A stretch of DNA of 64,000 nt from Telopea speciosissima. Its lineage: Eukaryota; Streptophyta; Magnoliopsida; Proteales; Proteaceae. The notes beneath the pieces were generated by a model. The model searched no databases. It was given only the letters and a program-made list of their open reading frames with translations, and was not told the origin of the DNA. The position numbers and the translations under genes were made by a program. Below are positions 12,966-40,648 of this stretch, one piece after another (the stretch's first letter is position 1; every line of letters starts with the position of its first letter). The stretch covers positions 12,046,001-12,110,000 of the forward strand of contig NC_057916.1 in assembly GCF_018873765.1 (NCBI RefSeq), in the 5' to 3' direction.

Positions 12966-13654
12966 CTCTCACTTTCCGTCTGCATAAACCAATCAGGCAT
13001 TTTAGTAAATAAACTGATAATAATATTTGTTATTTTCCAGCTATCTAGGGATCTGAGTATCTGACCCCTCTACTTCCGCCTGCTTGGTACTGTCGTGTAC
13101 TTTCACGCACAGGCGCAATGAAAATATCACTTTACCCTTGTTTGGGCAAAGCACCTAAATAGGGGTAAGGCGGTATATTCTACCTTACTTGTGTGTGGGG
13201 CACATATGGTAGTAGGAACGGGCAAAAGTAGAGGAGTCGAATTGACTATCCAATAGGTATTTTGGGAATCGTAAATCATGGAATATTAATGCAGACAACT
13301 ATAGACCATTCGTTGATCTAAAGTTCGTTAAAGCACAAATATCTTTATCAAAAAATAAAGAAAAAAAAAATTATGAAAGTAGTTTTCCTGCACAAAAAAG
13401 AGAGCTAGGAATTCCTTCTCCACTAATGTGACCCTATGGTTGGATTTTAAGTTCTATTATTGACTCCCAACACATTATTGTTCATGGCCATAAATATCTT
13501 GTTGATAATAGAGTTTAGATGCCGATTGTGGGATACTCTTCGTCTCTTCCTTCATTGTGGGAAAAAGAAAATTTATTTTAAATCTTATTTTGTCTACATG
13601 TGCTCAAATGATGCATAATTCCTTTACTGTGTATGTCGGTCTCTGGGGAGGGTT
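12966..13654. other. Phototropin 5' flank
   Basis: The likely initiator is the ATG whose first base is 12965, because it opens the PHOT1-like N-terminus and no upstream in-frame coding sequence resembles the family. The 5' untranslated region and promoter must lie here. I see no clear TATA box close to the start. Confidence 0.4.
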
Positions 13655-17590: not shown

Positions 17591-20066
17591 AGAGTGCTTG
17601 GATAAATGTATGGCCAATCCTGCTTGGGTCTCTCTTTGGCCATATGCCTCTCTTGTTTCTTCCACCTTCTCATTTTGTTAAATACATATTCTTCTCCATC
17701 CTCTTTTAAAAAGATTATTCACTTTCATGCTGCATGGATTAAAATTTTTATAGACAATTACAAGTGAATAGGTACTTAATTGAATTAAGCTTTGAAAATT
17801 GGCATATGATTAATCAGATCGATCAAATGGTTGGAAGAGTCGAATCATGTCTATCTGGTTAAGGAATAGTGAACAAATATAGAAAAAAAATTAATGGAAA
17901 GAACAATTTACAAAACAAATGAAATGAGGAACGCTTAAGATTTAAATCATGGGAAAAAAGATCCTGTGACGATGAAGTGGGATTCCATCCTATGTCCTCT
18001 CACATAATGAGCCGTGAGATCCATATTGATACTCTCTCACCTCATGCTAAAATATGAACCCAACCCTTCTTATTGATATGATTTTTTACTTTGACATCGT
18101 GAAAGTATCTACCCTATTTTTGGTTTTTTTTTAAAAGAAAAAGAATGTTATCAAATTACATAGTATACACTAGTGCTTTAGTGCGTCTATTTCACTCTTC
18201 TCTTCTTTTGAAATTATATATCTACCCCTTAACATTGAAGGAAGGATATAGACACAGAAAGATATTAACGTAAATTGCACAACATGATAGATTTTTTTTT
18301 TTTGGGGGGCACGGGAGGTAGAACCCCTAATTTTAAGTTTAGGAGATTAAGACTTGAACGGAGATTGTCTCAAGCGACCGACCAATCCCATTTTCACGTA
18401 GAAATCCAAAGCTAGTGGGCCCAAGATGCGGAAAGGCTTAGGTCCCAAGAGCCAATTCATTATCAAAGAAGGGGAAAGGAGAGAAAGGATAGGTCCAAAG
18501 GCCACGTGAACAGCAGGATTCATCCGTGCAAGCCTATCCATTCATAAGGTGGAACGCTGTCAATAGTCACATCTGCAATGTCACATGATCCCCCCTATAT
18601 AGTCAAATCGCACATGTTGCCTTTTCCCTGACCTTTTAATTTGTTTTGTCCCTGTGGTTATGGTATGGATGTCCATCACCCTCACCTGTAATCGTAAGAT
18701 AGACCCTTGCTTAGTGGGTGGTCCATTCATGGTTTGGGAATTTGAGAGATCGGTACGACTGATCGATTCGTATCGATATAGGTAGAAGCTGGAGATCGAT
18801 ATTGATTCTTGTTCGATCCCATATCGATGAATTGGTATGGATCAATGCATACTAATGCGGATCGATCTGGATCAGTAGCGACCAAGACAGATACCAATCC
18901 CAATACAAAAAACCTAGGACCCATCAATGTCTAGTTTTCATGGTTTGAGAAATCAAAATCGAGATCTGTATTAATATTGATCTATGATGAAGACACAAAA
19001 GTTTTAAGCTATTAGGTGGAGATAATCTAATGGTATATGGAGACACACCCAAAGATCATAGATATAACGTAATAGTCCAGGAAGTACCATACTTGAGAGT
19101 TCGACCCAAAAGCTTACGATATTATGTGGATATGGCCCCAATGGTATACGGAGACATGTCCAAGATCTTAGATAATCGATAACCATCGACAATTTGGATC
19201 CTCTACTGCCAAGCTGCCCGACATGACTGTGCTATTAAAACACGATAATTAAGATGCACAATGACCGCCTTAGAGGATCTGGATCCTAACTATCAATCGA
19301 TGACTCAATACTAGTACCTCATCGATCCTGGAAGAATAATAATAGTTGATTGCGGACGCTGGGCCAGGCCAGGCCTTGGTGGGTCTTATGCTATAGCTAG
19401 TACCTAACTAATAAATAGCCTGACAAACACAAGTTAGGTCAGGCGTGGGCCTGGAAACCATCTCTAAAATGCAAGCCCACTCCAGCCCCAAATCCAGGTG
19501 GGCTCGAATGGGTTTTTGAATTTGTCACTTATCCTCCTTACAGTTGTGATTTGTGCTTTGGGTCAATGTTGATCCTTGGCCCAATACGCAAATTTAAGTA
19601 AACGTCACCACCATAGTGACACCTATATTTTCTCAAATTTACTAAGTTTCGGTCCAAGGGGGCCAATCCCAGAACCGTCCCATTTAATTTGAAAAAGGAT
19701 CGTTTTGATTATTCTCAATTGTTGCTTACAGAGATGTGGCTTAGGCATCAAAGACTCCCCTACTATTACAAACTGACTGACTTTCTAGATATAACTCATT
19801 ACCAGCTACCACATTCTCTAGCCTGAAAAATACCTTAAAAAAAAAAAATCCTTGCCAGAAAATAAGAGAAAATTAAATAAAAAATACATAAATGAATGAA
19901 AGGTAAATCTAAACAGAATGATTCTATTAAAATAGATGAAATGTGCCCTATATATATATATATATATATAAAATACTAGCAAACAGAAACAGATAAACTC
20001 TTCTTTCAATAAGTACTAATTAAAGATGATCAGAGGGAGAGAGTGATCTGGACATGGTGGACGTCC
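17591..20066. other. Intergenic, repeats only
   Basis: Contains a CATCGTGG-family block (about 17960-18110), a GATC-rich block (18740-18960) and two adjacent related units with TTCGACCCAAAAGCTTA at about 19010-19190. At 19345-19690 there is a copy of the repeat that recurs at 23065-23310 and 32480-32790. A (TA) run lies at 19951-19970. No gene recognised. Confidence 0.5.
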
Positions 20067-20913
20067 TTACTCTCCTCCTCCTGCGGCCTCTTTGACTCTT
20101 TTGAGAATAATCGTCCTGAGCACTCCATTCTTCATCTCTGCCTCGATCTGATCATCCATCTTGTACAGCTTGTAGAGCTTCTCAAGAATAACAATCCTGC
20201 AAAAATACCTGACTCCCCATCTTCCACTTTCCTCCTCTTCCTTGTAGCCTCCTGCTGCGACGTACATCATATTCTTTTCCACCGAAACCATAACCTTCAC
20301 GTCCTTCTTCTCTACGCCAGGCAGTTTGGTACTTATGTAGACCCCACCACCATTCTCCACATATTTCATATCTACTATTGGCATTGATCCAGTCTCCATC
20401 ATCTGATTCCTGTTGGAGGCCCTAGACAGTGAGGATGTGTCGATCACATCTGTCCATCGAAGAATTGAATGAGAATTAGTAAATCATAACCAATTAGATA
20501 TCATGCATCAATCATTATCGATTAATATAATATAATTAATGCATGGTAGGAAGGAAATGTGAGAAATTTTTGAAAAAAAAATAAGTAAATTTGGAACTAC
20601 CAATGCATTATTTATTATTATAAGTTAATTCTCCGTACAACAAGTACCTACCCAACAAGATACGAGAGGATGATCCATCAGAGGAGGAGACGCGGACCAC
20701 GTTGACGTTGCTCTCAAAATCATCAAAGTGAGATGATGAATTGGTGTTGAAGGCACGACGACCACGAATAGGAAAAAACAACGGTGGTTCTACTGCTACT
20801 GCAACGTCAGAACGGAGGATTGGATTGAAAAACAATTTTTTTGGGTTTTTGTTGAGGAGTACCACCGAACTAGAAGAAGCTCTCCTCCGTAATAATGCCA
20901 ACGATGAAGCCAT
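20067..20913 (-). CDS. Diverged mitochondrial-type small heat-shock protein
   Basis: ATP-independent holdase-type chaperone family. Exon 1 is 20652-20913 and exon 2 is 20067-20449; the 202-bp intron interrupts a codon in phase 1 (G|AT), giving 213-214 residues. The N-terminus MASSLALLRRRASSSS, with Arg-rich sequence up to GRRAFNTNSSS, resembles the mitochondrial presequence of plant HSP23-type proteins. The alpha-crystallin domain shows the conserved KLPGVEKKDVKV and, near the C-terminus, MDDQIEAEMKNGVLRTIILK, matching the family's consensus around GVL. ILEKLYKLYKMDD carries an insertion relative to the usual DKIYKIDE. A TATA-like sequence lies near 21021 on this strand. I infer mitochondrial targeting; divergence suggests relaxed or altered function. 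Confidence 0.8.
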
Positions 20914-23062: not shown

Positions 23063-24468
23063 TAGCTAGGTCAGGCGTGGGGCTGGAAACCATCTCTAAA
23101 TGCAAGCCCACTCCAGCCCCAAAGCCAGGTGGGCTCGAATGGGTTTTTGAATTTGTCACTTATCCTTACACTTGTGATTTGTGCTTTGGGTCAATGTTGA
23201 TCCTTGGCCCAATACGCAAATTTAAGTAAACGTCACCACCATAGTGACACCTATATTTTCTCAAATTTATTAAGTTTCGGTCCAAGGGGGCCAATCCCCG
23301 AACCGTCATAACCAAACGGTCTTAAAACTAAAATTAATGTAAAATGATAGTTCCAACGTGCCAACTAGGCAAATCCAAACCATTGAATGAGAAAAAAGAC
23401 CCACAGTTTGGTCATGTGTCATATTTACGGTTCTAATTTAATTTATATTTGCTGTTTAGCACTGAAATTTGGGCCCACCTAACTTGCCACATATATAGCA
23501 GATAATACCGCACTTAATTACTGATATGCACTGGGATACAGTCCCATTGGACTGCACATATAACACCCTATATGGATTTTTTTTTTGGTACAAATAAATT
23601 TAATCATTTTTTGGTAGAACAGTAGAAGTGAAAATAAATTTATTCAGAGGAACTGGAAGGACTCATGAATGTCAAACATTGATCTTGAATTCATGGATCG
23701 GAGTTGGGCCAAACTGTCTTGCTCCACGGTGCCCTCCTTGACATGGAGTCTGCTAAGTTGTTCAACTCCCTTGAAACAAAAGAAAAAACACCATGGAGAA
23801 GTTTCACTATTTTCATAACCCTCAACAAAAATTTAAAAAGGATCATTTTGGCCAAGTATTACTCAATAACTTGAAAAAAAAAGCAAAAAAAGAGTCTTAC
23901 ATGATTATGATGTAACATTATGATTGGATTATTGGATAGGTGAGTTTTATCAATAACTCCTACCTACCGCTATTGTACAAAGTAAAAACAGTCTTCCCCA
24001 TCTCAATCGAAGAAGTTCGCTCATTTCTCCTTTATTGAATTTCACTTTAGCAATAAATTTTTTTTTATTTCATTTAAATTTAATAAAATAAATTTATAAA
24101 AATAATTTCCTTGTCATTCTTATAAAAATATTATTCACTTTTGTTGTTTTCAATTAAAAATAAGTACAACCTATAAGGGTATGTGCCACACTATAAAATA
24201 ATCCTGTATACAAGGATAACTCTCCTCCCTTGATTACAGAGGTTTTGGGGGACCGGGGGGGTTTAAAATGAGAAACTTCATGTAAGGACTAGGGAGTTAA
24301 TATACAAAAGGTTGAGTTTATATTGAAAAAAGAAAGTTACACAGTATACACAAGACACTGAATATACAATCTTAGACGTCAAAGTGCTAGAGCTCCTCTT
24401 TGATATAGATTCCAATCGTACGACAACAGAGAGCACTAGCTAGTAAACGAGTATAATGGAATAGATCT
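23063..24468. repeat. Left copy of about 1.4-kb direct repeat flanking the sHSP array
   Basis: It matches 32571-33990 in order and orientation: GGTCAGGCGTGGGGCTGG, TTTCGGTCCAAGGGG, GGGCCCACCTAACTTGCCAC, TTATTCAGAGGAA / TTATTTAGAGGAA, AAAATGAGAAACTTCATG and TAGACGTCAAAGTGCT. The copies diverge after a shared ATAGATCT. A shorter related copy of the first 250-350 bp lies at 19345-19690. No gene is seen in it. Confidence 0.8.
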
Positions 24469-24864
24469 CCACCACATAAGGTATGCATTATTGGAACGCA
24501 TTAATTAGTGCTTGATTTCGCATCTTGAGAGATAAAAATAATTATTTTTTATCATTCGAGAATATGAAATTAACTTAAAATGCATTCCAAGAATACTTAA
24601 GAATACATACCAAACACCGCACAATTGAGACTAAAACATGGATTTACCAAACCTAAAAAAAGGACTAAAACATGGAGAGTATAAAAGATCTTTGTTTGTC
24701 TTATATACAGACAGGCCAATGTCGCTTTCACAAATATTCTATATTCTAACAAACTTTGTCAGGCACACCTATTAGCAAAAGGTGTTGGCTAGTGCCAGGG
24801 TAAAATGGGGATAAAATCTCTTTTTGTTTTTTTGGGAGATAGGGTTAAGGGTAGAATGGGTAGA

Positions 24865-24890
24865 GAAAATTCTTCCTTTGCCTATATATA
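24865..24890 (+). promoter_or_regulatory. HSE-like half-sites and TATA box, unit 1
   Basis: GAAAATTC at 24865-24872 fits two of the alternating 5-bp modules of a heat-shock element (GAAnnTTC). A TATATATA box follows at 24883-24890, about 40 bp before the ATG. The arrangement repeats in units 2 and 3 (TATA near 25662 and 26442). In unit 4 the box reads CTGTATACAG and is probably weakened. Heat induction is inferred, not shown. Confidence 0.45.
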
Positions 24891-24928
24891 GTAATCTGCC
24901 CGTTCAATAATTCCAAAAACATTGTAAA

Positions 24929-25382
24929 ATGGGATTTTGGCTCTCTAGGGCGAGGGGGAATACTATAGTTGCTGTCTCAGCTTTGCTCTCTATTGATGTT
25001 GGTCAGTCGGTCAGGAAAGTCGATGCTCTCTGGTTCAAGGAACCTGTTTGGTGTGAGAAAGTTTAGTGTAGGTGATGATGTAGTGCCCGAGACTCCTCCC
25101 TCTCCCGGCTTTGATTGGGCAACCGGTCATCATCTTCATTGTTATGACTACGCTGTAGAAGGTAAGTTTTATATTGTATTTAGATTAAACACGTTCATAT
25201 TTACATAATAATCCCTATTCAAAATATATTTAATTTTTTTTTTGGCAGAGTGGTTTGACGTTTTCAATACCGCCGATGATCGGACCGTTGTCATCAAAAC
25301 AACGGGCGGGTATTTAATCTATCACGTGGCAAATAGGACTTTGTGGGTAACGGGCGGGTATTTAATCAACATTAGTAAGTAG
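24929..25382 (+). pseudogene. sHSP-array unit 1, frameshifted first exon
   Basis: ATG at 24929 opens MGFWLSRARGNTIVAVSALL, but compared with unit 2 the exon lacks 11 bp after GTCGAT. This shifts the frame and gives a TAG at 25064-25066 (about 45 residues). The rest of the exon, the donor GTAAG (near 25162) and the acceptor (near 25250) are preserved, so splicing may still occur. In the second exon the usual Cys codon TGC is TGG. The tail is the substituted ACGGGCGGGTATTTAATC sequence, present twice. Probably non-coding or decayed. Confidence 0.75.
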
Positions 25383-25701
25383 TAAGAGACTAAAACATGG
25401 ATTTACCAAACCAAAAAAACAAAGGAAAAAAAAAGGACTAAAACATGGAGAGTATAAAAGATCTTCGTTTGTTTTATATATAGACAAGCAAATGTCGCTT
25501 TCACAAATATTCTATATTCGAACAAACTTTATCAGGCACACCTATTAGCAAAAGGTGCTGGCCAGTGCCAGGGTAAAATGGGGATAAAATCTCTTTTTGG
25601 TTTTTTGGGAAATAGGGTTAAGGGTAGAATGGGTAGAGAAAATTCTTCCTTCCCCTATATATAGCAATCTGCCCGTTCAGTAATTCGAAAAACATTGTAA
25701 A

Positions 25702-26161
25702 ATGAGGTTTTGGCTCTCTGGGGCGAGGGGGAATACTATAGCTGCTGTCTCATCTTTGCTCTCTATCGATGCTGGTCAATCGGTTAGGAAAGTCGATACT
25801 CTGTCGGTGCTCTCTGGTTCAAGGAACCTGTTTGGTGTGAGAAAGTTTAGTGTAGGTGATGATGTAGTGCCCGAGACTTCTCCCTCTCCCGGCTTTGATT
25901 GGGCAGCCGGTCATCATCTTCATTGTTATGACAACGCTGTAGAAGGTAAGTTTTATATTGTATTTCGATTAAACACGTTCATATTTACATAATAATCCCT
26001 ATTTAAAATATATTAAAATTTTTTTTTTGACAGAGTGCTTTGACGTTTTCAATACCGCCGATGATCGGACCGTTGTCATCAAAACAACGGGCGGGTATTT
26101 AATCAGTCACGTGGCAAATAGGACTTTGTGGGTAACGGGGTGGGTATTTAATCAACATTAG
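25702..26161 (+). CDS. sHSP-array unit 2: intact leader with replaced C-terminus
   Basis: Exon A is 25702-25945 and exon B 26034-26161, joined in phase 1 (G|AG), encoding 123 residues. Residues 1-51 look like a mitochondrial presequence: basic, Ser-rich, no acidic clusters, with SGSRNLFGVRKFSV as a plausible cleavage region. Then come GDDVVPETSPSPGFDWAAG and ECFDVFNTADDRTVVIKT, shared with the downstream array. The alpha-crystallin domain is missing; the tail after VVIKT is TGGYLISHVANRTLWVTG plus a few residues. I do not know a protein with this tail. It could be expressed as a truncated protein or serve as a 5' donor for downstream exons; it could equally be a decayed copy. Confidence 0.55.
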
Positions 26162-26487
26162 TAAGTAGTATGAGACTAAAACATGGATTTACCAAACCAA
26201 AGAAAAAAAGAAAAAAAAAAGGACTAAAACATGGAGAGTATAAAAGATCTTCGTTTGTTTTATATATAGACAAGCAAATGTCGCTTTCACAAATATTCTA
26301 TATTCTAACAAACTCTATCAGGCACACCTATTAGCAAAAGGTGCTGGCCAGTGCCAGGGTAAAATGGGGATAAAATATTTTTTTGGTTTTTTGGGAGATA
26401 GGGTTAAGGGTAGAATGGGTAGAGAAAATTCTTCCTTCCCCTATATATAGCAATCTGCCCGTTCAGTAATTCCAAAAACATTGTAAA

Positions 26488-27012
26488 ATGGGGTTTTGGC
26501 TCTCTGGGGCGAGGGGGAATACTATAGCTGCTGTCTCTTCTTTGCTCTATGGGGCGAGGGGGAATACTATAGCTGTTGTCTCTGGGGCGAGGGGGAATAC
26601 TGTAGCTGCTGTCTCATCTTTGCTCTCTATCGCTGTTGGTCAGTCGGTCAAGAAAGTCGGTGCTCTCTGGTTCGAGGAACCTGTTTGGTGTGAGAAAGTT
26701 TAGTGTAGGTGATGATGTAGTGCCCGAGACTCCTCCCTCTCCCGGCTTTGATTGGGCAGCCGGTCATCATCTTCATTGTTATGACAACGCTGTAGAAGGT
26801 AAGTTTTATATTGTATTTCGATTAAACACGTTCATATTTACATAATAATCCCTATTTAAAATATATATATTTTTTTAGGTAGAGTGCTTTGACGTTTTCA
26901 ATACCGTCGATGATCGGACCGTTGTCATCAAAACAACGGGCGGGTATTTAATCTGTCACATGGCAAATAGGACTTTGTGGGTAACGGGCAGGTATTTAAT
27001 CAGCATTAGTAA
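26488..27012 (+). pseudogene. sHSP-array unit 3, frameshifted, with triplicated presequence motif
   Basis: ATG at 26488. The GARGNTIAAV segment is present three times where units 1 and 2 have one. As in unit 1, 11 bp are missing near GTCG, so the frame ends at TAG about 40 bp later (71 residues). The deletion junction differs from unit 1 (GTCGGTGC against GTCGATGC), suggesting separate events or later conversion. The second exon starts at 26883 and carries the replaced tail. Confidence 0.75.
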
Positions 27013-27324
27013 GTAGTAAGAGACTAAAACATGGATTTATCAAACCAAAAAAAAGAAGAAAAAAAACATGGAGAGTATAAAAGATCTTCGTTTGTCTTAT
27101 ATATAGACAGACAAATATCGTTTTCACAAATATTCTATATTCTAACAAACTTTGTCAGGCACACCTATTAGCAAAAGGTGCGGGCTAGTGCCAGGGTAAA
27201 ATGGGGATAAAATCTCTTTTTGGTTTTTTGGGAGATAGGGTTAAGGGTAGAATGGGTAGAGAAAATTCTTCCTTCCCCTGTATACAGCAATATGCCCGTA
27301 CAGTATTTCCAAAAACGTTGTAAA

Positions 27325-28469
27325 ATGGGGTTTTGGCTCTCTGGGGCGAGGGGGAATACTATAGCTGCTGTCTCTAGGGCGAGGGGGAATACTATAGCTG
27401 CAGTCTCTGGGGCGAGGGGTAAGACTATAGCTTCTATCTCATCTTTGCTCTTTATTGATGCTGGTCAGTCGGTCAGGAAAGTCGATGCTCTCTCGGTGCT
27501 TTCTGGTTCGAGGAACCTGTTTCGTGTGAGAAAGTTTAGTGTAGGTGATGATGTAGTGCCCGAGACTCCTCCCTCTCCCGACTTTGATTGGGCAGCCGGT
27601 CATCATCTTCATTGTTACGACAACGCTGTAGAAGGTAAGTTTTATATTGTATTTCGATTAAATACGTTCATATTTACATTAAAATATATATAGTCCCATA
27701 AAGACATGGGAAAATGGGATTATAATTTTTATCCCCATGCCAGGACTATCTGAGGCCAAAGTGACCGTGAGAGGAAAAACTTTCATTGCTGAAGGTGAGT
27801 CCGGGATACTGGGCAGAAAGTATGTAACCACCGTTTCGTTTTCAGAGAACATGGTGAATCTGAATGAGTACAGTATGGAAGTTGATAAGGGGGTCCTAGT
27901 AGTATCTGTTCCTACCGAGTAGGTTTTTGTGTTTTGAGTTTGGGGTTTGTTCTTGTTTAAGTTTTTGTGAATGTGTTGGTTATGTGTATACCTTTAGGTG
28001 ATGATGTAGTGCCCGAGATTCCTCCCTCTCCCGGCTTTGATTGGGAAGTCGATCATCATCTTCATTATTACGACAACGCTATAGAAGGTAAGATTTATAT
28101 TGTATTTCGATTAAATACGTTCATAATTACATAATAATTCCTATTAATATATATATATATATTTTGGCAGAGTGTTTTGACGTTTTCAATACCGCCGATG
28201 ATCGGACCGTTGTCATCAAAACTCTCTCAGACATTTATAGTCCCATAAAGACATGGGAAAAGGGGATTATAATTTTTATCCCCATGCCAGGACTATCTGA
28301 GGCCAAAGTGACCGTGAGAGGAAACACCTTCATTGCTGAAGGTGAGTCCGGGATGCTGGGCAGAAAGTATGTAACCACCGTTTCATTTTCGGAGAACATG
28401 GTGAACCTGAATGAGTACAGTATGGAAGTTGATAAGGGGGTCCTAGTAGTGTCTGTTCCTACCGAGTAG
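27325..28469 (+). CDS. Candidate spliced sHSP-like gene: unit-4 leader exon + crystallin exon D2
   Basis: Exon A4 (27325-27634) is open: a presequence with three GARGNTIAAV-type repeats, LSGSRNLFRVRKFSV, then GDDVVPETPPSPDFDWAAG. It ends G|GTAAG (phase 1). Its own acceptor and the start of its crystallin exon are deleted (see D1). The first downstream acceptor with an intact crystallin exon is D2 (28171-28469, stop TAG). Joined, they stay in frame and give 202 residues, close to plant mitochondrial sHSPs. D2 carries FIPMPGLSEAKVTVRG and NEYSMEVDKGVLVVSVP, matching the two consensus regions of the alpha-crystallin domain. This gene model is my inference; D3, D5 and D6 could substitute for D2. 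Confidence 0.5.
27691..27922 (+). pseudogene. Crystallin exon D1, 5' truncated
   Basis: A deletion joins intron TA-rich sequence directly to TATAGTCCCATAAAGACAT, removing the acceptor and the ECFDVFN part. The remaining frame from 27737 reads MPGLSEAKVTVRGKTFIAEG to PTE-stop (61 residues). It could be read only from its own ATG or by readthrough, so it is probably a relic of the unit-4 gene's own second exon. Confidence 0.75.
27998..28087 (+). other. 90-bp symmetric exon L1
   Basis: Same sequence as the 3' part of exon A. Acceptor ACCTTTAG precedes it and donor GTAAG follows. Its phase is 1-1, so it can be included or skipped without frame change. It encodes GDDVVPEIPPSPGFDWEVD, with more substitutions than the other copies. 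Confidence 0.6.
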
Positions 28470-28569
28470 GTTTTTTGTGTTTTGAGTTTGGGGTTTGTTC
28501 TTGTTTCAGTTTTTGTGAATGTGTTGGTTATGTGTATACCTTTAGGTATACTGCTTATTATACCTTTAG

Positions 28570-28659
28570 GTGATGATGTAGTGCCCGAGACTCCTCCCTC
28601 TCCCGATTTTGATTGGGCAGTCGGTCATCATCTTCATTGTTACGACAACGCTGTAGAAG
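28570..28659 (+). other. 90-bp exon L2, donor lost
   Basis: The acceptor TTTAG is intact but the donor reads GAAGGAAGT, two bases short of GAAGGTAAGT, so the GT is gone. If transcribed it would run into the intron (SFILYFD-stop). The same lesion occurs in L6. Confidence 0.6.
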
Positions 28660-28723
28660 GAAGTTTTATATTGTATTTCGATTAAATACGTTCATATTTA
28701 CATAATAATCCCTATTTTAAAAA

Positions 28724-28726
28724 AAA

Positions 28727-28780
<54 letters not shown>
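28724..28780. repeat. (TA)n in intron before D3
   Basis: About 50 bp of TA repeats lie immediately before the D3 acceptor (TTGGCAG), replacing the pyrimidine tract seen before D5. Confidence 0.9.
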
Positions 28781-28782
<2 letters not shown>

Positions 28783-28785
28783 CAG

Positions 28786-29084
28786 AGTGCTTTGACGTTT
28801 TCAATACCGCCGATGATCGGACCGTTGTCATCAAAACTCTCTCAGACATTTATAGTCCCATAAAGACATGGGAAAAGGGGATTATAATTTTTCTCCCCAT
28901 GCCAGGACTATTTGAGGCCAAAGTGACCGTGAGAGGAAACACCTTCATTGCTGAAGGTGAGTCCGGGATGCTAGGCAGAAAGTATGTAACCACCGTTTCG
29001 TTTTCGGAGAACATGGTGAACCTGAATGAGTACAGTATGGAAGTTGATAAGGGGGTCCTAGTAGTGTCTGTTCCTACCGAGTAG
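28786..29084 (+). CDS. Crystallin exon D3
   Basis: It is 299 nt after a CAG acceptor, phase-compatible with exon A and L exons. It encodes ECFDVFNTADDRTVVIKT, then PMPGLFEAKVTV (Ser to Phe) and the conserved MEVDKGVLVVSVPTE-stop. It has no ATG of its own before MPGL, so it needs splicing to be translated from the start. Confidence 0.55.
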
Positions 29085-29184
29085 GTTTTTTGTGTTTTGA
29101 GTTTGGGGTTTGTTCTTATTTCAGTTTTTGTGAATGTGTTGATTATGTGTATACCTTTAGGTATACTGCATATTATACTTTTAG

Positions 29185-29274
29185 GTGATGATGTAGTGCC
29201 CGAGACTCCTCCGTCTCCCGGCTTTGATTGGGCAGCCGATCATCATCTTCATTGTTACGACAACGCTGTAGAAG
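29185..29274 (+). other. 90-bp symmetric exon L3
   Basis: Acceptor and donor (GTAAG) are both intact; phase 1-1. It encodes GDDVVPETPPSPGFDWAAD and continues to YDNAVE. Confidence 0.6.
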
Positions 29275-29333
29275 GTAAGTTTTATATTGTATTTCGATTA
29301 AATACGTTCATATTTACATAATAATTCCTATTT

Positions 29334-29334
<1 letters not shown>

Positions 29335-29401
<67 letters not shown>

Positions 29402-29440
29402 GGCAGAGTGTTTTGTATATATATATATATATATATATTA
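29335..29440. repeat. (TA)n with duplicated acceptor fragment before D4
   Basis: A TA tract is interrupted near 29400-29415 by TATGGCAGAGTGTTTTG and then resumes before the real D4 acceptor. The interruption copies the acceptor and the first 12 bases of the D4 exon, so a decoy acceptor exists about 42 bp upstream. Confidence 0.85.
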
Positions 29441-29446
29441 TGGCAG

Positions 29447-29745
29447 AGTGTTTTGACGTTTTCAATACCGCTGATGATCAGACCGTTGTCATCAAAACTC
29501 TCTCAGACATTTATAGTCCCATAAAGACATGGGAAAAAGGGATTATAATTTTTATCCCCATGCTAGAACTATCTGAGGCCAAAGTGACCGTGAGAGGAAA
29601 GACCTTCATTGCTGAAGGTCAGCCCGAGATGCTGGACAGAAAGTATGTAACCACCGTTTCGTTTTCGAAAAACATCGTGAACCTGAATGAGTACAGTATG
29701 GAAGTTGATAAGGGGGTCCTAGTAGTGTCTGTTCCTACCGAGTAG
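29447..29745 (+). CDS. Crystallin exon D4, possibly with its own ATG
   Basis: It is 299 nt. The acceptor context ATGGCAG provides an in-frame ATG at 29440, absent in the other copies (TTGGCAG). D4 could therefore be translated as a free domain of about 101 residues or be spliced. It carries more substitutions than its neighbours (LELSEAKVTV, GQPEMLDRKY, SFSKNIVN). The loss of the Pro in MPGL affects a conserved family position. Confidence 0.5.
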
Positions 29746-29845
29746 GTTTTTTGTGTTTTGAGTTTGGGGTTTGTTCTTGTTTCAGTTTTTGTGAATGTGT
29801 TGGTTATGTGTATACCTTTAGGTATACTGCTTATTATACCTTTAG

Positions 29846-29935
29846 GTGATGATGTAGTGCCCGAGACTCCTCCCTCTCCCGGCTTTGATTGGGCAGCCGG
29901 TCATCATCTTCATTGTTACGACAACGCTGTAGAAG
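29846..29935 (+). other. 90-bp symmetric exon L4
   Basis: Intact acceptor TTTAG and donor GTAAG, phase 1-1. Its sequence equals the consensus GDDVVPETPPSPGFDWAAG. Confidence 0.6.
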
Positions 29936-30020
29936 GTAAGTTTTATATTGTATTTCGATTTAATACGTTCATATTTACATAATAATTCCTATTTAAAATA
30001 TATATATATATTTTTGGCAG

Positions 30021-30319
30021 AGTGCTTTGACGTTTTCAATACGGCCGATGATCGGACCGTTGTCATCAAAACTCTCTCAGACATTTATAGTCCCATAAAG
30101 ACATGGGAAAAGGGGATTATAATTTTTATCCCCATGCCAGGACTATCTGAGGCCAAAGTGACCGTGAGAGGAAACACCTTCATTGCTGAAGGTGAGTCCG
30201 GGATGTTGGGCAGAAAATATGTAACCACCGTTTCGTTTTCGGAGAACATGGTGAACCTGAATGAGTACAGTATGGAAGTTGATAAGGGGGTCCTAGTAGT
30301 GTCTGTTCTTACCGAGTAG
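30021..30319 (+). CDS. Crystallin exon D5
   Basis: It is 299 nt with a good acceptor (TTTTTGGCAG). The open frame has consensus PMPGLSEAKVTV and MEVDKGVLVVSV, ending LTE-stop (Pro to Leu). It is one of the best-preserved copies. Confidence 0.55.
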
Positions 30320-30419
30320 GTTTTTTGTGTTTTGAGTTTGGGGTTTGTTCTTGTTTTAGTTTTTGTGAATGTGTTGGTTATGTGTATACCTTTAGCTATA
30401 CTGCATATTATACTTTTAG

Positions 30420-30509
30420 GTGATGATGTAGTGCCCGAGACTCCTCCCTCTCCCGGCTTTGATTGGGCAGCCGGTCATCATCTTCATTGTTACGACAACG
30501 CTGTAGAAG
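30420..30509 (+). other. 90-bp symmetric exon L5
   Basis: Intact acceptor and donor, phase 1-1, consensus coding sequence. Confidence 0.6.
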
Positions 30510-30596
30510 GTAAGTTTTATATTGTATTTCGATTTAATACGTTCATATTTACATAATAATCCCTATTTAAAAAAAATATATATATATTTTTGGCAG

Positions 30597-30895
30597 AGTG
30601 CTTTGACGTTTTCAATATGGCCGATGATCGGACCGTTGTCATCAAAACTCTCTCAGACATTTATAGTCCCATAAAGACATGGGAAAAGGGGATTATAATT
30701 TTTATCCCCATGCTAGGACTATCTGAGGCCAAAGTGGCCGTGAGAGGAAACATCTTCATTGCTGAAGGTGAATCCGGGATGCTGGGCAGAAAGTATGTAA
30801 CCACCGTTTCGTTTTTGGAGAACATGGTGAACCTGAATGAGTACAGTATGGAAGTTGCTAAGGGGGTCCTAGTAGTGTTTGTTTCTACCGAGTAG
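30597..30895 (+). CDS. Crystallin exon D6
   Basis: It is 299 nt and open throughout. Substitutions include FNMADD, MLGLSEAKVAV, SFLENMV, MEVAKGVLVVFVSTE. The conserved GVL is retained, but the Pro of MPGL is changed to Leu. Confidence 0.55.
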
Positions 30896-30995
30896 GTTTT
30901 TTGTGTTTTGAGTTTGGAGTTTTTGCTTATTTCAGTTTTTGTAAATGTGTTGGTTATGTGTATACCTTTAGGTATACTGCTTATTATACCTTTAG

Positions 30996-31085
30996 GTGAT
31001 GATGTAGTGCTTGAGACTCCTCCCTCTCCCGGCTTTGATTGGGCAGCCGGTCATCATCTTCATTGTTACGACAACGCTGTAGAAG
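30996..31085 (+). other. 90-bp exon L6, donor lost
   Basis: Same GAAGGAAGT donor lesion as L2, with V-P-E changed to V-L-E. Shared lesions in L2 and L6 suggest the L-D units were copied or converted as blocks. Confidence 0.6.
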
Positions 31086-31172
31086 GAAGTTTTATATTGT
31101 ATTTCGATTAAATACGTTCATAATTATATAATAATCCCTATTTAAAATATATATATATATATATTTTGGCAG

Positions 31173-31471
31173 AGTGATTTGACGTTTTCAATACCGCCGA
31201 TGATCGAACCGTTGTCATCAAAACTCTCTCAGACATTTATAGTCCCATAAAGACATGGGAAAAGGGGATTATAATTTTTATCCCCATGCCAGGACTATTT
31301 GAGGCCAAAGTGATCGTGAGAGGAAACACCTTCATTGTTGAAGGTGAGTCCGGGATGCTGGGCAGAAAGTATGTAACCACCGTTTCGTTTTCGGAGAACA
31401 TGGTGAACCTGAATGAGTACAGTATGGAAGTTGATAAGGGGGTCCTTGTAGTGTCTGTTCCTACCGAGTAG
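31173..31471 (+). pseudogene. Crystallin exon D7, early stop codon
   Basis: The first full codon after the acceptor, TGC in the consensus, is TGA, so any transcript spliced to D7 would terminate at once. The rest of the frame is open from MPGLFEAKVIV to PTE-stop. The following spacer ends at 31567, where an L exon would begin, and joins unrelated sequence. Confidence 0.75.
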
Positions 31472-31584
31472 GTTTTATGTGTTTTGAGTTTGGGGTTTGT
31501 TCTTGTTTCAGTTTTTGTGAATGTGTTGGTTATGTGTATACCTTTAGGTATACTGCTTATTATACCTAAATAAAACAACAGAGT

Positions 31585-31922: not shown

Positions 31923-32091
31923 GAGAGAAAGTTCTCTGTCCAGGAGTGTGGCCTATGCCAGCACTCCCATGAGTCTATCTCTCTCCTCCTCATTTGAAAA
32001 GACACTTTTGCCCCCTTGTTTTGAGGAGGAGAGAGATAGACACATGGGAGTGCTAGCGTAGGCCACACTCTCGGACAGAAAACTACTTCCC
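31923..32091. mobile_element. Mutator-type foldback MITE with exact 9-bp duplication
   Basis: It is 169 bp with long inverted arms (AGTGTGGCCTATGCCAGCAC near the left, its near-complement near the right). GTGTTATTC flanks it at 31914-31922 and 32092-32100. Close relatives are at 32246-32414 and 40483-40648. Confidence 0.88.
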
Positions 32092-32112
32092 GTGTTATTC
32101 AGATGTGTTCTC

Positions 32113-32146
32113 TCAATAAGTTCTATAAAGGACAGAGATTAACAAT

Positions 32147-32193
<47 letters not shown>

Positions 32194-32240
32194 AATAAGT
32201 TCTATAAAGGACAGAGATTAACAATTACTATATATATATA
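32113..32240. repeat. Tandem duplication around a (TA)n tract
   Basis: TCTCAATAAGTTCTATAAAG and the following 25 bp occur twice, starting near 32112 and 32190, separated by TA repeats. The second copy runs straight into the next foldback element. Confidence 0.8.
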
Positions 32241-32245
32241 TATAT

Positions 32246-32414
32246 GGGAAAAAGTTCTCTGTACGGGAGTGTGGCCTACGCCAGCACTCCCATGTGTCTA
32301 TCTCTCTCCTCCTTAAAACAAGGGGGCAGATGTGTCTTTTCACATGGGGAGGAGAGAGATAGACAAATGGGAGTGTTGGCGTAGGCCACACTCCCAGATA
32401 GAGAACATTTTCCC
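32246..32414. mobile_element. Foldback MITE in a TA tract
   Basis: It is 169 bp, opening GGGAAAAAGTTCTCTG and closing AGAGAACATTTTCCC. The centre is inverted relative to the neighbour at 31923. It is flanked by TA repeats, so the target duplication cannot be judged. Confidence 0.85.
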
Positions 32415-32570: not shown

Positions 32571-33990
32571 TATAGGTCAGGCGTGGGGCTGGAAACCATC
32601 CCTAAAATGCAAGCCCACTCCAGCCCCAAATCCAGGTGGGCTCCAAGAGTTTTGCTTTGGGTCAATGTTGATCCTTGGCCCAATACGCAATGCAAATTTA
32701 AGTAAACGTCACCACCATGGTGACACCTATATTTTCTCAAATTTACTAGTTTCGGTCCAAGGGGCCAATCCCAGAACCGTCCCATTTAATCAAACGGTTT
32801 TAAAATTAAAATTAATGTAAAATGATAGTTCCAACATGCCAATTAGGAAAATCCAAACCATTGAATGAGAAAAAGGACCCATATTTTGGTCATGTGTCAT
32901 ATTTACGGGTCTAATTTAATTTATATTTACTGTTTAACACTGAAATTTGGGCCCACCTAACTTGCCACATATATAGCAGATAATACCGCACTTAATTACT
33001 GATATGCACTGGGATACAATCCCATTGGACTTCACATAACCACCCCAATATGGATTTTTTTTGGGTGAAAATAAATTTAATCCTTTTTTTTTGTAGTACA
33101 GTAAAAGTGAAAATAAATTTATTTAGAGGAATTGGAAGGATTCATGAATGCCAAACATTGATCTTGAATTCATGGATCGAAATTGAGCCAAAGTTTTTGA
33201 ATCATTATCTCCTCCAATTCGTTGTCTGCTCCAATTTCCTCCAATTCCTCACATAGGAGTGGAAATGACCACCCTACCCCTTGCTCGAACACACTGCCCA
33301 AGATGGGGTAGGATGATCATTTCCACTCCTATATGAGGAATTGGAGAAAATTGGAACGGGCAGCGAAATGGAGGTGATAATTATTCCTAAGTTTCCTGCT
33401 CGTAATAGGCACTACCCTCCTTCTTGGATAGGTAAGTTTTATCATTAACTCCTACCTCTATTGTACGAATTAAAAATTATTTTTTCCCATCTCCATTGAA
33501 ACGCCGGATGTCATGACTTAAGATGTTCTCTTCTCTATGGGTGAAGTTCACTCATTTTTTCTTTATTTAATTTCACTTTTGCAATAAACTGTTTTATTTC
33601 ATTTAAATGCTAATAAAATAAATATATAAAAAATATTTCCTTGTCATTCTTAAAGAAAAAACTATTCACTTTTGTTATTTTCAAATAAAAGTAAGCACAA
33701 CCTATAAGGGTATGTGCCGCCACATTGTAAAAATAATCCTCTATACAAGGATAACTCTCCTCCCTTGATGGGGGGGGGGGGTTGTAAAATGAGAAACTTC
33801 ATGTAAGGACTAGGGAGTTAATATACAAAAGGAAGAATTTATATTGAAAAAAAGGAAAGTTACACAGTATACACAAGACACTGAATTTACAATCTTAGAC
33901 GTCAAAGTGCTGGAGCTCCTCTTTGATATAGATTCCAATCGTACGACAACAGAGAGCACTTGCTGGTAAACGAGTATAATGCAATAGATC
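32571..33990. repeat. Right copy of about 1.4-kb direct repeat flanking the sHSP array
   Basis: Matches 23063-24468 (see that entry), with an extra foldback insertion at about 33201-33384. Sequence upstream (32481-32570) matches 19345-19440, so the repeat unit is longer than the shared left copy. No gene seen. Confidence 0.8.
33201..33384. mobile_element. Foldback insertion within the right flanking repeat
   Basis: ATCATTATCTCCTCC at the left is inverted as GGAGGTGATAATTAT at the right, with inner arms GGAGTGGAAATGACC / GATCATTTCCACTCC. The left flanking repeat lacks it, so it inserted after duplication. Confidence 0.7.
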
Positions 33991-34315
33991 TGCACCGACC
34001 ATGAGATGGGTCCCAACCCAAAGATCGACTTTGTTATAAACATATATATCTATAATCCTAATTATATGATCACAATCGTTAGGGGGAAAAAAAAATATTA
34101 GAGAAAAGCTCCAAAATAAACTATAGATCGGACGGCTATGGATTGCTTGATCATTCTAACATTTGGCTGCAATCTTTGAGGTGGGACCTATTCAATAGTA
34201 GCCTATATAATCCAATGAACATGAAACACGTGGCAAAAGTATGGCACCCCTAAACTATTTTACAAGAAATTTGGTTTAAGCCACTTCATTTTCTTTTTAA
34301 AATGTTCCCCAAAGA
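33991..34315. other. Spacer between repeat and bHLH 3' end
   Basis: AT-rich; would contain the bHLH 3' untranslated region on the minus strand. No other signal recognised. Confidence 0.4.
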
Positions 34316-36203
34316 CTAAAATTCTGGCTCTGGTTTTGTGTTCAAATATGGTGATTGCGACTCTTCTCTGTTCTGATACATCAGCTTCAGCTTCTGACTT
34401 AACATCTCACATTCCAATCTCTGAGTTTCTTTCACCTGTTGAATCACAAGTGAAGGGAAGAAATATTAGATGAAAGAGAAATAAAATTGATATTACGAAT
34501 TATAAAGTTATAGTTTTACATCGTTTTATTCATGTCCTTAGACGATTGCTCTGATATCATATTAAAGAAAATAGAATAGATCACAAAATACTATTTATAG
34601 ATCCCAACGGAAGAGGTTAAGCTATTAGGTTGGGATCCCAATGATATTTTGTGGGCTTACCCACTTTTATTATATTTGATATAGTATCAATCTTTAAGTG
34701 GTATTTTGTGAACTATCCCACTTTATTTAACAAATCAGGTTTGAATTATGTGACGTGCGACTCCTGCTGGCCTAGAAATCTAAGTTGTTTTGTTTCCAAT
34801 GGTAAGATCTAGACTAATTAATCATGGACCCAGTTTCTCTTTAACCCATATAGTGAAAAGAGAATCTTCTCATCCATGGAATCTGACCCTTTGATTGGAT
34901 TAGAGAAATGTATTTTGGACCTTAAACAATAGGGGCTGAGAGTTAAGTGATGACATCTACTCTTCCTTAAATCATAACATCCAATCATCATCGCTCTTCA
35001 CCTACAGTGTGAAGAAAAACTAAATCCTCAGGACAAGATTGAACATACTTCTTGGAACATGATACTAGTAGGACCTTAAGGTTTCATGTTCTATTTCACT
35101 CTCTGGTGGGGGTTCTTTGTTCTTTTCATTCCAAGTAAGAGCTTAAAAAATCTAGAAATGTTTTTCAAACTCAATAGGTTTATAATTGGGTTGAGATCAC
35201 CAACCCTAACCCAACCTACAAGCTACTAATTGGATTGATGGGTTTTTTTTTTTTTTTTAAATTTTATGTTTTTTTAGGGGTGAGGGTGGTTATGAAGTAG
35301 CAGTATACACTGAATGATTTAAGGATGAAATGTCTTTGTTGCTTGCTTAAATAAGATTAAAACAACTGGAATTAAAATTTAATAAGGTAATAATAATAAT
35401 AATAATAATTAATGACAGGAAGAGAAGAATTAATTTTGACCTGAAGATGGAGATTGTAGAAAACCCTTTCACCATAAGAAGTAATAGCTGAAGCACTGAG
35501 GACATAAATCCCAACTTCTTCCAAAACTAATAAAACCTCAGAAAGAGGGATAGTTTTGGCTTTCAATGCACAAATCTGAATCACAACTTCCCTATCATCG
35601 AGTTGACTCGCCGCTACACTCGGCATAGAAACTCGGTCGCCACCTCCACCACCACCGGCAGTTTTCCCCTGTTTCATGGAATCTCCTTGCTTGTAGATAC
35701 TTGATAAAATCTCTTCTTTCTTTTGTGTTAACTTCTGGACATGTTTTTGCAATTCTGGTATATACATGAGTGCACAAGAAACAGTTGCTGGGATACTCAA
35801 TTTCTTCTGCAATAACCACACACTTCATTAATTAATTTAATTAATTAATGACAAGAACTTATATATACAGAGGAGGAGAGACTGATTAATTAAAAATATG
35901 ATCAATAATAAATACCTTTCTATCAGTTTCTGGAAGTAGAGATTGGAGATCTGTGTATAAATCATTCAATCTTTTTCGACGATCGCGTTCACTTGCGTTG
36001 TGGCTTAATTTTTTGGTACTGGAAGGAGGACCATCAAAATCCATCTGTTGCTGTGAAGAAGGAAACTGAAGGAATGATTCTGAAGTTTCTGGTTCTTTGT
36101 AATTGCAGCTCATGAAAGCTTCATTATTGTGTTTATGGGCTGTGGGATCATGATCTAATCTTGATAAATCAAAGGTTGGAAATGGAGTAGAATTAGCCAA
36201 CAT
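34316..36203 (-). CDS. bHLH transcription factor, subgroup Ib-like
   Basis: Nuclear DNA-binding regulator. Exons 35916-36203, 35441-35806 and 34316-34435 join in frame to 257 residues. The basic region HNASERDRRKRLNDLYTDL has the His-Glu-Arg residues expected for E-box binding; helix 2 follows as KKLSIPATVSCALMYIPEL. The intron between ETDRK and KKLS falls in the loop, as in subgroup Ib genes. The C-terminal part (DREVVIQICALKAKTIPLS to FYNLHLQ) resembles the ACT-like region of the ORG2/ORG3, bHLH38/39/100/101 group, which regulates iron-deficiency responses in Arabidopsis. A Gly-rich stretch precedes it. The iron role is inferred from family only; I would not assign a specific member. Confidence 0.85.
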
Positions 36204-36239
36204 TTTGGTTTTGTTGGGAACTCTACTGCTGCTACTACT

Positions 36240-39200
36240 CCAGTCTTTCAGAAAGGGGGGGGAAGTGTTGTTTGGCCTTCAAGGGTTTTTATAGAATTTT
36301 CATATATAGATAGATGCTTTCCATTGTTAATAAGAATAATTTACAGGGCAGATGATGAAGTGGGTAATTGAGATTTAGACCTTTAATGTATTCTTTTATA
36401 AAGATTCAACCAAACTATGTTTGTTTATTAGAGTGAGATTATCAGAAAACAACTAATTTAGTTTAGATTACTGAGACCCTTAATAAATGGTTTACTCTAA
36501 AGCATCAGAAGCCACTAGGGCTTCGACGCGTAAGCCAAAATCTGATGTGGCCTTCTCCAAATTTTCTTACCCTTTTTGCACTTTCCTTTTAAACCTTGGC
36601 ATCAGGTATAGGATTGGTCTCCATCGATTCCAGGGGCCTCACAATCACTAGTCAATATGCTTTTCTCTTAAGCCTTTCATCGTTCATGGTTCGATGTTCT
36701 GGTGTCCTAGGCGTGTAGAGGAACCATACCAATCTATCCTGAACTTCGTGGTTAAACTCTACTGCAGTGATGATATTGCAGGGGAGGTCCTGTGGAAAAA
36801 TAGCTTGGCACCAGGATGATGAAAAGCTTAACACCTCTCATTCTTTTTTGATTCGGATTTGAAATTGTTCGTAATTAATCATAATCGATTGGACTCAACC
36901 TAACTCGGTCGAAGACAACTATTTACTCAGTTGGTTAGTAGCCTAGAGTGCCCCACTTTCAAGTAGTTGTAGTCAAAGTCCCATGGGGCAACCCCCCACC
37001 CCACCAAAAAAAAAAAAAAGAAGAGCTAATTCAATCACTCAATATGCATAGAATTGTGTACTATCACCCTCTCACATAGGGGTTTTTTTTTTCTTGATTA
37101 TGTAGACCTACGTGAATAATACTATTCTCAACGCTACTATTGGTGTGACATGGAAGATTCCCCCCTATATTGACATCGTGGAGAACCCCCTCCTAAGAAA
37201 ATATAAACCTAGAGTGAATGATAATTCCAAAATCCATATATAAAGGATTTGAAAAATATTGCTACACTGGATTTGCACAGATTCCTTTATACCACCACCC
37301 TTATATAATAAAAAGCGGGATACACATTGAAATTTCTCTCTATTATTCTGACTATGTGGACCCTATGTAGACCCATATAAATGATACTATTTCCAACTCC
37401 TCATTGGTTGCAGTGTGTAGATTCATTCATACACTGCCCTTATAGTAAACCCTCCCCTATAAGGGATTTTGAGTGTATAAGTGATTTGTTTACCCAACGA
37501 CCATTGAGAGATTCTCGTGGTTGACTAGGTTTTCTCACCTGGTTCCCTTATTTGGTTTGTTTTGAATTCACAGTTATTATAATTTCTTTCTATAAATATC
37601 ACACTCTCACTTCAACGTGTAGCTTAAGATATCACCTTAATTAATACCTAATTCATAGTTCATAATTAAAATTGAGAGCTACATTTTGTCACTATTCCAA
37701 GAAGTCAACTAAAAAAAAGTCTTAGAAAACTTAGTGAAATTTGAGAACCATCCGCGTGGTAGATGAGGTGGCATCCTAAAAACGTCTCCACGTGTTTTCA
37801 TTTGACTTTATTATTAATGAGAATAACTTCTTGTCACCAAAGTGGTGCATGAACAGGTTGGAATCATATTTTTTTGTCCCTTGTTTTATTCTTAAAAATT
37901 ATTTAATGTAAGGATAAAAATGAGTTTTTAAATAATTGAAAGTTATTTAATGCAGCTTTTATGTGAAATGACAGTAATTACCCTTATCGAAAAAAATAAT
38001 GTATAGTATTAGAATGCCAGAAAAGAAAAAAATAATGTATAGTATTAGCATGCCAGAAAAGAAAATTTTCAATCTTGATGTAACCAACCTTGATTACAGT
38101 AAGATTTTCCCTTTATTAATAAAAGAACCCAGCGCATGCACCTAAAAAAAAGACCCCACGTGCTTTCATTATCACATTTTAGCCAATTTATTTAAACTTT
38201 TTTATACATTTCACGCTATCCATCTGTTATAGGGGGGCCATTAACACAACCATGAGAGATTATGATTTAATTTGATGAATTAGAAAGAAAAAAAAAAAAG
38301 ATTCCCACGATGTCGGACTCAATGAGCCGTGAGGTTACCACTCACACTCTTTCTCCTCAGACAAAATATAGAGACATTTTACTGAGCGAATCCATCTCTT
38401 ACCTTTTCATTGGTGCGGTTTCTACTCTTGCATCGTGGGAAACCTTTGCCTGATGAAATATAGTGCCTTAAATTGTTATTTTTTAACACATTAGCTTTCC
38501 TACCCGACCTAGTTCTCCCACTCTGCTCGAGTGAGGTCCACCCCTCTTATTACAGGCACTGGGGGAACTGGGCCGAACAGGAAACTGGAGGGGACAAAGA
38601 TCCAAAGTGGGTCATGGGTTCTAGGCACATCCCAATCTGATTCAGATTTGTTGTTAAGGAGTAACATATCATGTGAGAGGGAACCCTAATATGAAACTTT
38701 TCTTCCAAATATATTAGTATATTAATCTTCCTCAAAGGAAACAGGACATGGGGGTTAAAATGTCCAGGTTATGTAGTAGAGGAATAAGGGGACAGAATAC
38801 TAGAATATGCGAAGCCTCATTGACCCCCTGTATCCAGATTAAAGCCTTAATTATATTTTAAGCTTAATCACTTAAATCTTTCTTCTAATTGATTTTATTT
38901 CTTTTTTTTTTTTACAAATTTTTATATTTTTATCGATAATAAACCTCCCGTAGATGCAAATCTTGGGTTTTTTTTTTTTGTTTTCTTTTGGGGAAGGGGC
39001 GATGGTAGCAAGGACCACTTTTCACAAGACAAATTTCAACCCGATACGAGTAAAATAAGTGGCAATTTTAATCATTAAACAACTCTAAGGGTGCAAGATG
39101 ATGCATAGGTGTCTCATTACATGAAAGGGTATATAATTGAATATTAGTCGGAATTTGACATGTCACCTTATTATTGGTGAAGCCTGATTTCAATCTAATA

Positions 39201-40335: not shown

Positions 40336-40482
40336 GGGTTCATAACCATTGAGTGCATTCACCAAGTGATCTATAAAGTCTTAAATTTTCAAGTGTTTAT
40401 TGAGGCAATGTTTGATATATATTCTTCGTATACAATGTTGATCTTAAACTTCTGGAGCAATTATTTATTTAACTCATTTTAA

Positions 40483-40648
40483 GGGAGAAAGTTCTCTTTC
40501 TAGGAGTGTGGCCTACGCCAGCACTCCCATGAGTCTATCTCCCTCCTCCCCATATGAAAAGACACCTCTACCCCCTTGTTTTGAGGAGAGAGATCGACAC
40601 ATAGGAGTGTTGGCATAGGCCACACTCTCGGACGGAAAGCTAATTCCC
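40483..40648. mobile_element. Foldback MITE of the GGGAGAAAGTTCTCT family
   Basis: It is 166 bp and closely related to 31923-32091. The flanks TCATTTTAA and TCATTTTTA match at eight of nine positions. Confidence 0.85.

Follow-up and report, generated by a model that had tools for sequence, protein, structure and literature searches.

The analysed window is a 64,000-nucleotide stretch of Telopea speciosissima DNA (NCBI RefSeq assembly GCF_018873765.1, contig NC_057916.1, positions 12,046,001 to 12,110,000 of the forward strand), to which all coordinates refer unless another contig is named. Between 24629 and 31571 the window carries, entirely on the + strand, an array of partial copies of a two-exon gene of apparent small heat-shock protein (sHSP) ancestry: four A units with promoter and exon 1 (24.6-27.7 kb) are followed by seven B units with exon 2 (27.7-31.5 kb). 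A preliminary description had proposed four promoter and first-exon units ahead of seven alpha-crystallin exons, an order that sequence reading and repeat analysis confirm; its view that a single two-exon gene had its 5' and 3' portions amplified separately is supported as well. The array is real, and its layout is unusual while its ingredients are ordinary. It is probably the product of independent partial tandem duplications inside one sHSP-derived gene, mostly decayed.

The A units contain a promoter and exon 1, as originally described, but A1-A3 hold more than that: each comprises a promoter of ~300 bp, exon 1, an intron of 84-88 bp, the first 52 nt of exon 2 and a tail of 84-89 bp. In unit A1 (24629-25389), the TATA region of the promoter reads TATATATA, and a frameshifted exon 1 (24929-25161) is followed by the intron (25162-25248), the exon-2 fragment (25249-25300) and a tail to about 25389. 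Unit A2 (25390-26172) keeps TATATATA and has an open exon 1 (25702-25945), with the intron at 25946-26033, the exon-2 fragment at 26034-26085 and then the tail. Unit A3 (26173-27018) also keeps TATATATA; its exon 1 (26488-26798) contains internal repeats, is frameshifted and lacks the same 11 bp as that of A1, and the intron (26799-26882), the exon-2 fragment (26883-26934) and the tail follow. In unit A4 (27019-27682), the TATA region is altered (CTGTATACAG), exon 1 (27325-27634) is open with two extra 33-bp repeats, and the exon-2 fragment and tail of A1-A3 are missing: the intron, with the donor GTAAGT, is truncated and continues into B1. The 33-bp repeats (SGARGNTIAAV) lie within exon 1 of both A3 and A4. 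The start codons, at 24929, 25702, 26488 and 27325, stand in near-identical context, and the promoters differ pairwise by 2.9-7.3%. Each A promoter has one two-unit GAAnnTTC site, and 53 such sites occur across the 64-kb window. In the genome searches, which covered the 822.9-Mb assembly of 1287 contigs, matches to the tail (query 25290-25390) were confined to A1-A3 (three of three; the search skips common words).

Units B2-B7 each consist of the last 90 bp of exon 1, an intron, a 299-nt exon 2 and ~100 bp of 3' untranslated region (UTR). The B1 unit (27683-27997) is curtailed at both ends and retains a 3' UTR and an exon-2 remnant (27683-27922) that has lost the splice acceptor and roughly 20 codons at its start. 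In B2 (27998-28569), the 90-bp tail (27998-28087) and the intron lead to an open exon 2 (28171-28469), the first acceptor-bearing exon 2 downstream of A4. The tail of B3 (28570-29184) has lost the donor GT, and the intron contains a long AT run ahead of an open exon 2 (28786-29084). In B4 (29185-29845), the intron has an AT run and a repeated acceptor region, and exon 2 (29447-29745) is again open, as are those of B5 (29846-30419; exon 2 30021-30319) and B6 (30420-30995; exon 2 30597-30895). Unit B7 (30996-31571), the other of the two units without a donor GT, has a TGA directly after the splice junction of its exon 2 (31173-31471) and ends in the terminal 3' UTR. All exon-2 ends include the stop codon. 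The sole + strand AATAAA between 24600 and 31700 is found at 31569-31574.

The six 90-bp stretches, beginning at 27998, 28570, 29185, 29846, 30420 and 30996, had been taken for six intervening exons. All six are present, but they are copies of the exon-1 tail, corresponding to the 90 bp that closes exon 1 in A1-A4, and do not represent a third kind of exon. A TAG stands directly 5' of every one of them, which therefore places an acceptor-like site at each. Pairwise differences between the exon-2 copies amount to 1.7-7.9%, and values this low exclude chance similarity. Within the assembly, seven of ten protein matches to exon 2 and all 12 matches to exon 1 fall inside the array, these counts being lower bounds.

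Ancestry of the second exon

Outside the array, exon 2 is matched at C9:17402576 (53%), C4:22472868 (51%, one stop) and C6:58516022 (43%), and the match to the canonical mitochondrial-type sHSP on C6 (L021) reaches E 3.9e-4. The C6 locus reads as an ordinary two-exon gene of this type, with a second exon that matches PF00011 at 3.6e-19. In local alignments with L021, B2 scores 113 against 53 for the best of 300 shuffles, and the C9 paralogue scores 130 against a shuffle maximum of 57. The C9 paralogue (C9:17394000-17413500; L055, L019 and L054) is intronless at the corresponding site and reaches 14.4 bits with PF00011, below the cut-off of 20.8. A head-to-tail duplication has doubled its alpha-crystallin domain (ACD) half (copies at 7793-8290 and 8297-8779 within the joined 19.5-kb stretch; ~500 bp, 81%), and the second copy, which matches in two frames, looks frameshifted; the 5' part contains 2.6 copies of an 80-bp repeat. 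On C4 the paralogue is in pieces (C4:22470500-22475500; L020): an ACD part with a stop and no PF00011 match lies upstream of an exon-1-like part on the same strand, which contains 3.5 copies of a 93-bp repeat. Both the 80-bp and the 93-bp repeats sit in the part corresponding to array exon 1, and their units also contain GAR. Within this subfamily, the array and C9 are the two loci in which the gene parts have been copied separately.

A hidden Markov model (HMM) of HSP20, trained on 25 of this genome's 98 HSP20 places, gives 11.2-20.4 bits for the seven array copies, 25.2 for C9 and 9.5 for the C4 piece, and all seven array copies exceed every one of 10,000 shuffles (best 8.9 bits). Among 344 other local open reading frames (ORFs) used as decoys, the top score of 43.3 bits belongs to a real neighbouring sHSP gene, described below, and the next is 3.7. 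The AlphaFold model from the seven array sequences is of low confidence (mean pLDDT 58.6); with this model, the first 22 of 50 PDB matches shown by Foldseek are sHSPs (best E 1.9e-4, TM ~0.6), followed from rank 23 by CS and p23 domains. A search of PDB by sequence gave no relevant match. In a tree of 25 sequences (22 of the 25 HSP20 domains with B2, C9 and the neighbouring gene, leaving out L034, L043, L053, C4 and the remaining array copies), the mitochondrial-type sHSPs, the array and C9 form one side of a split with 97% ultrafast bootstrap support, and within that group the array and C9 sit on a long branch.

The gene structures, with splice sites read by eye, show a phase-1 intron in all three genes: at the D of the motif in the C6 gene (DVF) and the neighbouring gene (DVI), and three residues ahead of that D in the array (DVF). 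Like these mitochondrial-type plant sHSPs, the array has two exons with a phase-1 intron at or just before DVF/DVI, an alpha-crystallin-type second exon with GVL near its end, and an Arg-rich N-terminus with R-x-F-S/N, a motif of this class. Unlike them, it misses the Pfam cut-off, has FSEN in place of LPEN with loss of the proline, and has a shorter loop before GRKY. The array ends right after VP-TE (VPTE, compared with MVNGE in C9 and VHEVKIE in L021), and the I/V-x-I/V motif of the sHSP C-terminal extension, present in L021 as V-x-I, is missing. By its sequence, exon 2 is homologous to accepted sHSP members, a link for which the paralogues, the fold and the tree were needed. The array gene is sHSP-derived in ancestry only; it is not filed as a working sHSP because the Pfam-level signal, the LPEN proline and the C-terminal V-x-I are missing. 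The alpha-crystallin identity originally claimed from two consensus regions holds as descent, but the regions themselves are partial, with GVL kept and LPEN replaced. The class name 'mitochondrial-type' is a reading from the N-terminus and sequence.

Divergence and origin of the copies

Among the copies, exon 2 is as divergent as intron and 3' UTR, with a mean p-distance of 0.046 for exon 2, 0.048 for the 3' UTR and 0.023-0.061 for the introns between B units. The exon-2 copies show 47 changes from their consensus, 19 of them synonymous, compared with 16.1 expected under the observed spectrum (p 0.36), which is derived from the same 47 changes and favours 'no difference', and 13.5 under a transition/transversion model (p 0.11). 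When the 43 distinct changes are counted, 17 are synonymous (p 0.13-0.52). Neutrality among exon-2 copies is not rejected under these more realistic mutation models, and the constraint suggested by raw site counts (ratio 0.44) is not significant with transition bias or the observed spectrum. One stop is observed in exon 2 against 1.0 expected, and B4 has the most nonsynonymous changes from the consensus of any copy (10). Between array B2 and C9, dN/dS is ~0.13 with dS near saturation; the lineage was therefore under selection earlier.

The letters at the junctions are GTGTAGGTGATG in exon 1, CTTTAGGTATAC in the 3' UTR and CTTTAGGTGATG at the B1/B2 junction, and the first B duplication may therefore have used TAGGT. 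The five later B junctions contain 24 additional bases of 3' UTR and meet at TATACCT, barring single changes in some copies; since TATACCT is present in the first B junction and in the terminal 3' UTR, re-duplication there is likely. Units B3 and B7 have the donor loss and a single exon-2 change in common, and the type of 3' UTR alternates along B2-B6, a pattern that, read from the junction letters, would fit unequal exchange.

The proposed ancestor would be one two-exon gene of the mitochondrial-type sHSP lineage, hit by at least two independent partial tandem duplications. The A duplication would have repeated the promoter, exon 1, the intron and the first 52 nt of exon 2; the B duplication, the last 90 bp of exon 1, the intron, exon 2 and ~100 bp of 3' UTR. 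The B series may have started at the 5-bp microhomology TAGGT, common to exon 1 and the 3' UTR, and been re-duplicated through the 7-bp microhomology TATACCT, with copy number probably rising by unequal exchange between copies. Most copies would now decay without detectable selection, and the locus would be mainly silent. At most one gene would work, with exon 1 of A2 or A4 spliced over debris to an open exon 2; the simplest such splice would join A4 to B2 over a 536-nt intron. The direct observations behind this scheme are the copies, their lesions, the sHSP homology and the divergence at intron and UTR level.

In vertebrate UGT1A-type clusters, a row of promoter and first-exon units lies upstream of common exons, as in the array; the common exons of UGT1A are single and functional, whereas the array has seven second exons, several of them damaged. 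In PEP1 of Arabis alpina, a partial tandem duplication comprises the proximal promoter, exon 1 and part of intron 1, and both exon-1 copies are spliced to one exon 2, with both transcripts shown by cDNA (PMC3527215). The duplication of promoter, exon 1 and part of the intron ahead of exon 2 is common to PEP1 and the array. However, PEP1 has two exon-1 copies and a single downstream exon set, whereas the array has four exon-1 units and an amplified 3' half; as a plant precedent, PEP1 covers the 5' half alone. Like the partial (intragenic) tandem gene duplicates treated in a review (PMC3449122), the array shows incomplete duplication with breakpoints within the gene; it differs in that both of its halves were amplified next to each other, to four copies and seven. 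In the open-access literature on sHSPs or partial duplication (most subscription journals lie outside it), no plant locus with both halves amplified was found among the papers listed, which include one on brown-algal ROCO exon shuffling (PMC11378527); no paper that brings together sHSPs, Proteaceae and Telopea was found in the open-access literature. The original statement that no described plant locus of this layout is known accordingly needs qualifying: for the two halves together no precedent turned up in that literature, but PEP1 precedes the array for the 5' half.

Partial tandem duplicates themselves are common; here both halves of one gene are amplified side by side with readable junctions, and the locus shows how an exon array can arise from a gene. 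With a TAG before it, the exon-1 tail could act as an internal exon that leaves the frame unchanged, which offers a specific and testable way for new exons to arise. Should the locus prove to be transcribed, it would give plants an instance of alternative first and alternative last exons in one gene; otherwise it would clearly illustrate the breakdown of a gene into a repeat.

Competing explanations

Several results weigh against partial duplication and decay of an sHSP-derived gene. PF00011 (HSP20) at its gathering score matches none of the seven exon-2 copies and none of three queries, and it was the lack of an HSP20 match that the preliminary description had itself named as refuting its proposal. 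The NCBIfam Hsp20 profile is weak (E 0.015-0.086 in five of seven copies), and the unrelated V-type ATP synthase subunit F fits about equally well (E 0.022-0.08 in five of seven). A profile-profile comparison with four class-I sHSPs gives a probability of 5% and aligns the GVL segment alone. If equal substitution rates are assumed, 10.9 synonymous changes are expected, and the 19 of 47 become an excess (p 0.008); in B1, B2 and B5, grouped post hoc, synonymous changes make up 10 of 14 (p 0.001-0.008 by model). Acceptor and frame are kept in five of seven exon-2 copies, and joins of A2 or A4 to B2-B7 (leaving out the frameshifted A1 and A3, and B1, which has no acceptor) give complete ORFs in 10 of 12 cases, which pure debris need not do. 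In addition, the scheme does not explain where the A-unit tail came from, and no tree of units fixes the order and number of the duplications.

The complete joins therefore leave room for a working gene, and the array may be read as a single transcription unit in which alternative first exons (A2, A4) are spliced to tandem second exons in the manner of PEP1 or UGT1A, yielding one or more mitochondrial sHSP-like isoforms with the 90-bp pieces as optional phase-1/phase-1 exons. This is unlikely on present evidence. The A2 and A4 first exons are open upstream of B2-B6, with intact acceptors and frames; either exon 1 with each of B2-B6 gives a complete ORF of 180 or 202 aa, and the frame is kept when the B2 90-bp piece, or four such pieces before B6, are added. 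The TAG at all six 90-bp pieces, the TATATATA retained by A1-A3 and the mostly synonymous changes of B1, B2 and B5 point the same way, as does the position of the sole AATAAA past the last copy, as if earlier units were read through. However, one AATAAA across 7 kb of repeats carries little weight, and this signal is not obligatory in plants; the TATA of A4 is altered, two of six 90-bp donors are lost, and exon 2 evolves at the pace of introns and UTRs. The chance of a live compound gene is small. It is somewhat less probable still that the array and C9 form a self-splitting subfamily, with separate 5' and 3' duplication on different contigs and with the array as a compound transcription unit of alternative promoters, junction-made optional 90-bp cassettes and same-phase alternative second exons.

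The changes themselves are biased: 33 of the 47 in exon 2 are C-to-T or G-to-A, and across the A and B alignments C-to-T columns occur at 26/78 CHG, 32/313 CHH and 6/60 CG sites (CHG vs CHH p 3e-6; CHG vs CG p 0.001). This excess at CHG could be the footprint of DNA methylation drawn by tandem copies, in which case the locus would be a silent repeat array held as heterochromatin, with any role exerted via small RNA. Such a reading is doubtful, as CG is not raised, which is odd for ordinary heterochromatin, and the three local flanking-repeat pairs lean alike (CHG 8/98, CHH 27/690, CG 3/84; p 0.07), so that the effect may be regional. Expansion or mis-joining of a smaller array during assembly is very improbable: the long AT runs in two introns are hard to assemble, but the array copies are mutually different and therefore not a single copy repeated by the assembler. 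Their exon-2 differences exceed the heterozygosity of 0.76% given for Telopea speciosissima (PMC13080361), and the C9 paralogue on another contig has a similar pattern.

Neighbouring gene and flanking sequence

A two-exon mitochondrial-type sHSP gene lies on the - strand at 20067-20913 (exon 1 20913-20652, exon 2 20449-20067, splice sites by eye), 3.7 kb from the array. It matches PF00011 over the cut-off (E 4.7e-6) and is not a member of the array. The 98 places found by the genome-wide HSP20 search do not include this gene. The C9 paralogue aligns to it with a score of 80, above the shuffle maximum of 53. Origin of the array by local duplication of this neighbour is unsupported, the alignment of B2 with it scoring 50 against 54 for shuffles.

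The array is flanked by direct repeats on the + strand at 23178-24473 and 32650-33996 (88-91%). Local direct duplication around the array is 88-96% identical, with a partial third copy at 19343-19688. The flank query 23178-23713 has 27 genome matches, namely the query itself, two further local matches (535 and 130 bp) and, elsewhere in the assembly, 24 short ones that fall in the last ~120 bp of the query; it has no long match elsewhere. A long terminal repeat (LTR) retrotransposon with these direct repeats, 9.5 kb apart, at its ends is unsupported by the match pattern of 23178-23713, the span 24012-24473 lying outside that search.

A palindromic element resembling a miniature inverted-repeat transposable element is present at 31928-32410 and 40482-40648, and related copies lie near the C9 paralogue (four best 87-91%). 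On the - strand, a PAS-domain-like exon at 12240-12968 (PAS_9, E 0.0013, below the cut-off) presumably resembles phototropin, and an exon of a bHLH gene is located at 35889-36278 (PF00010, 1.7e-8).

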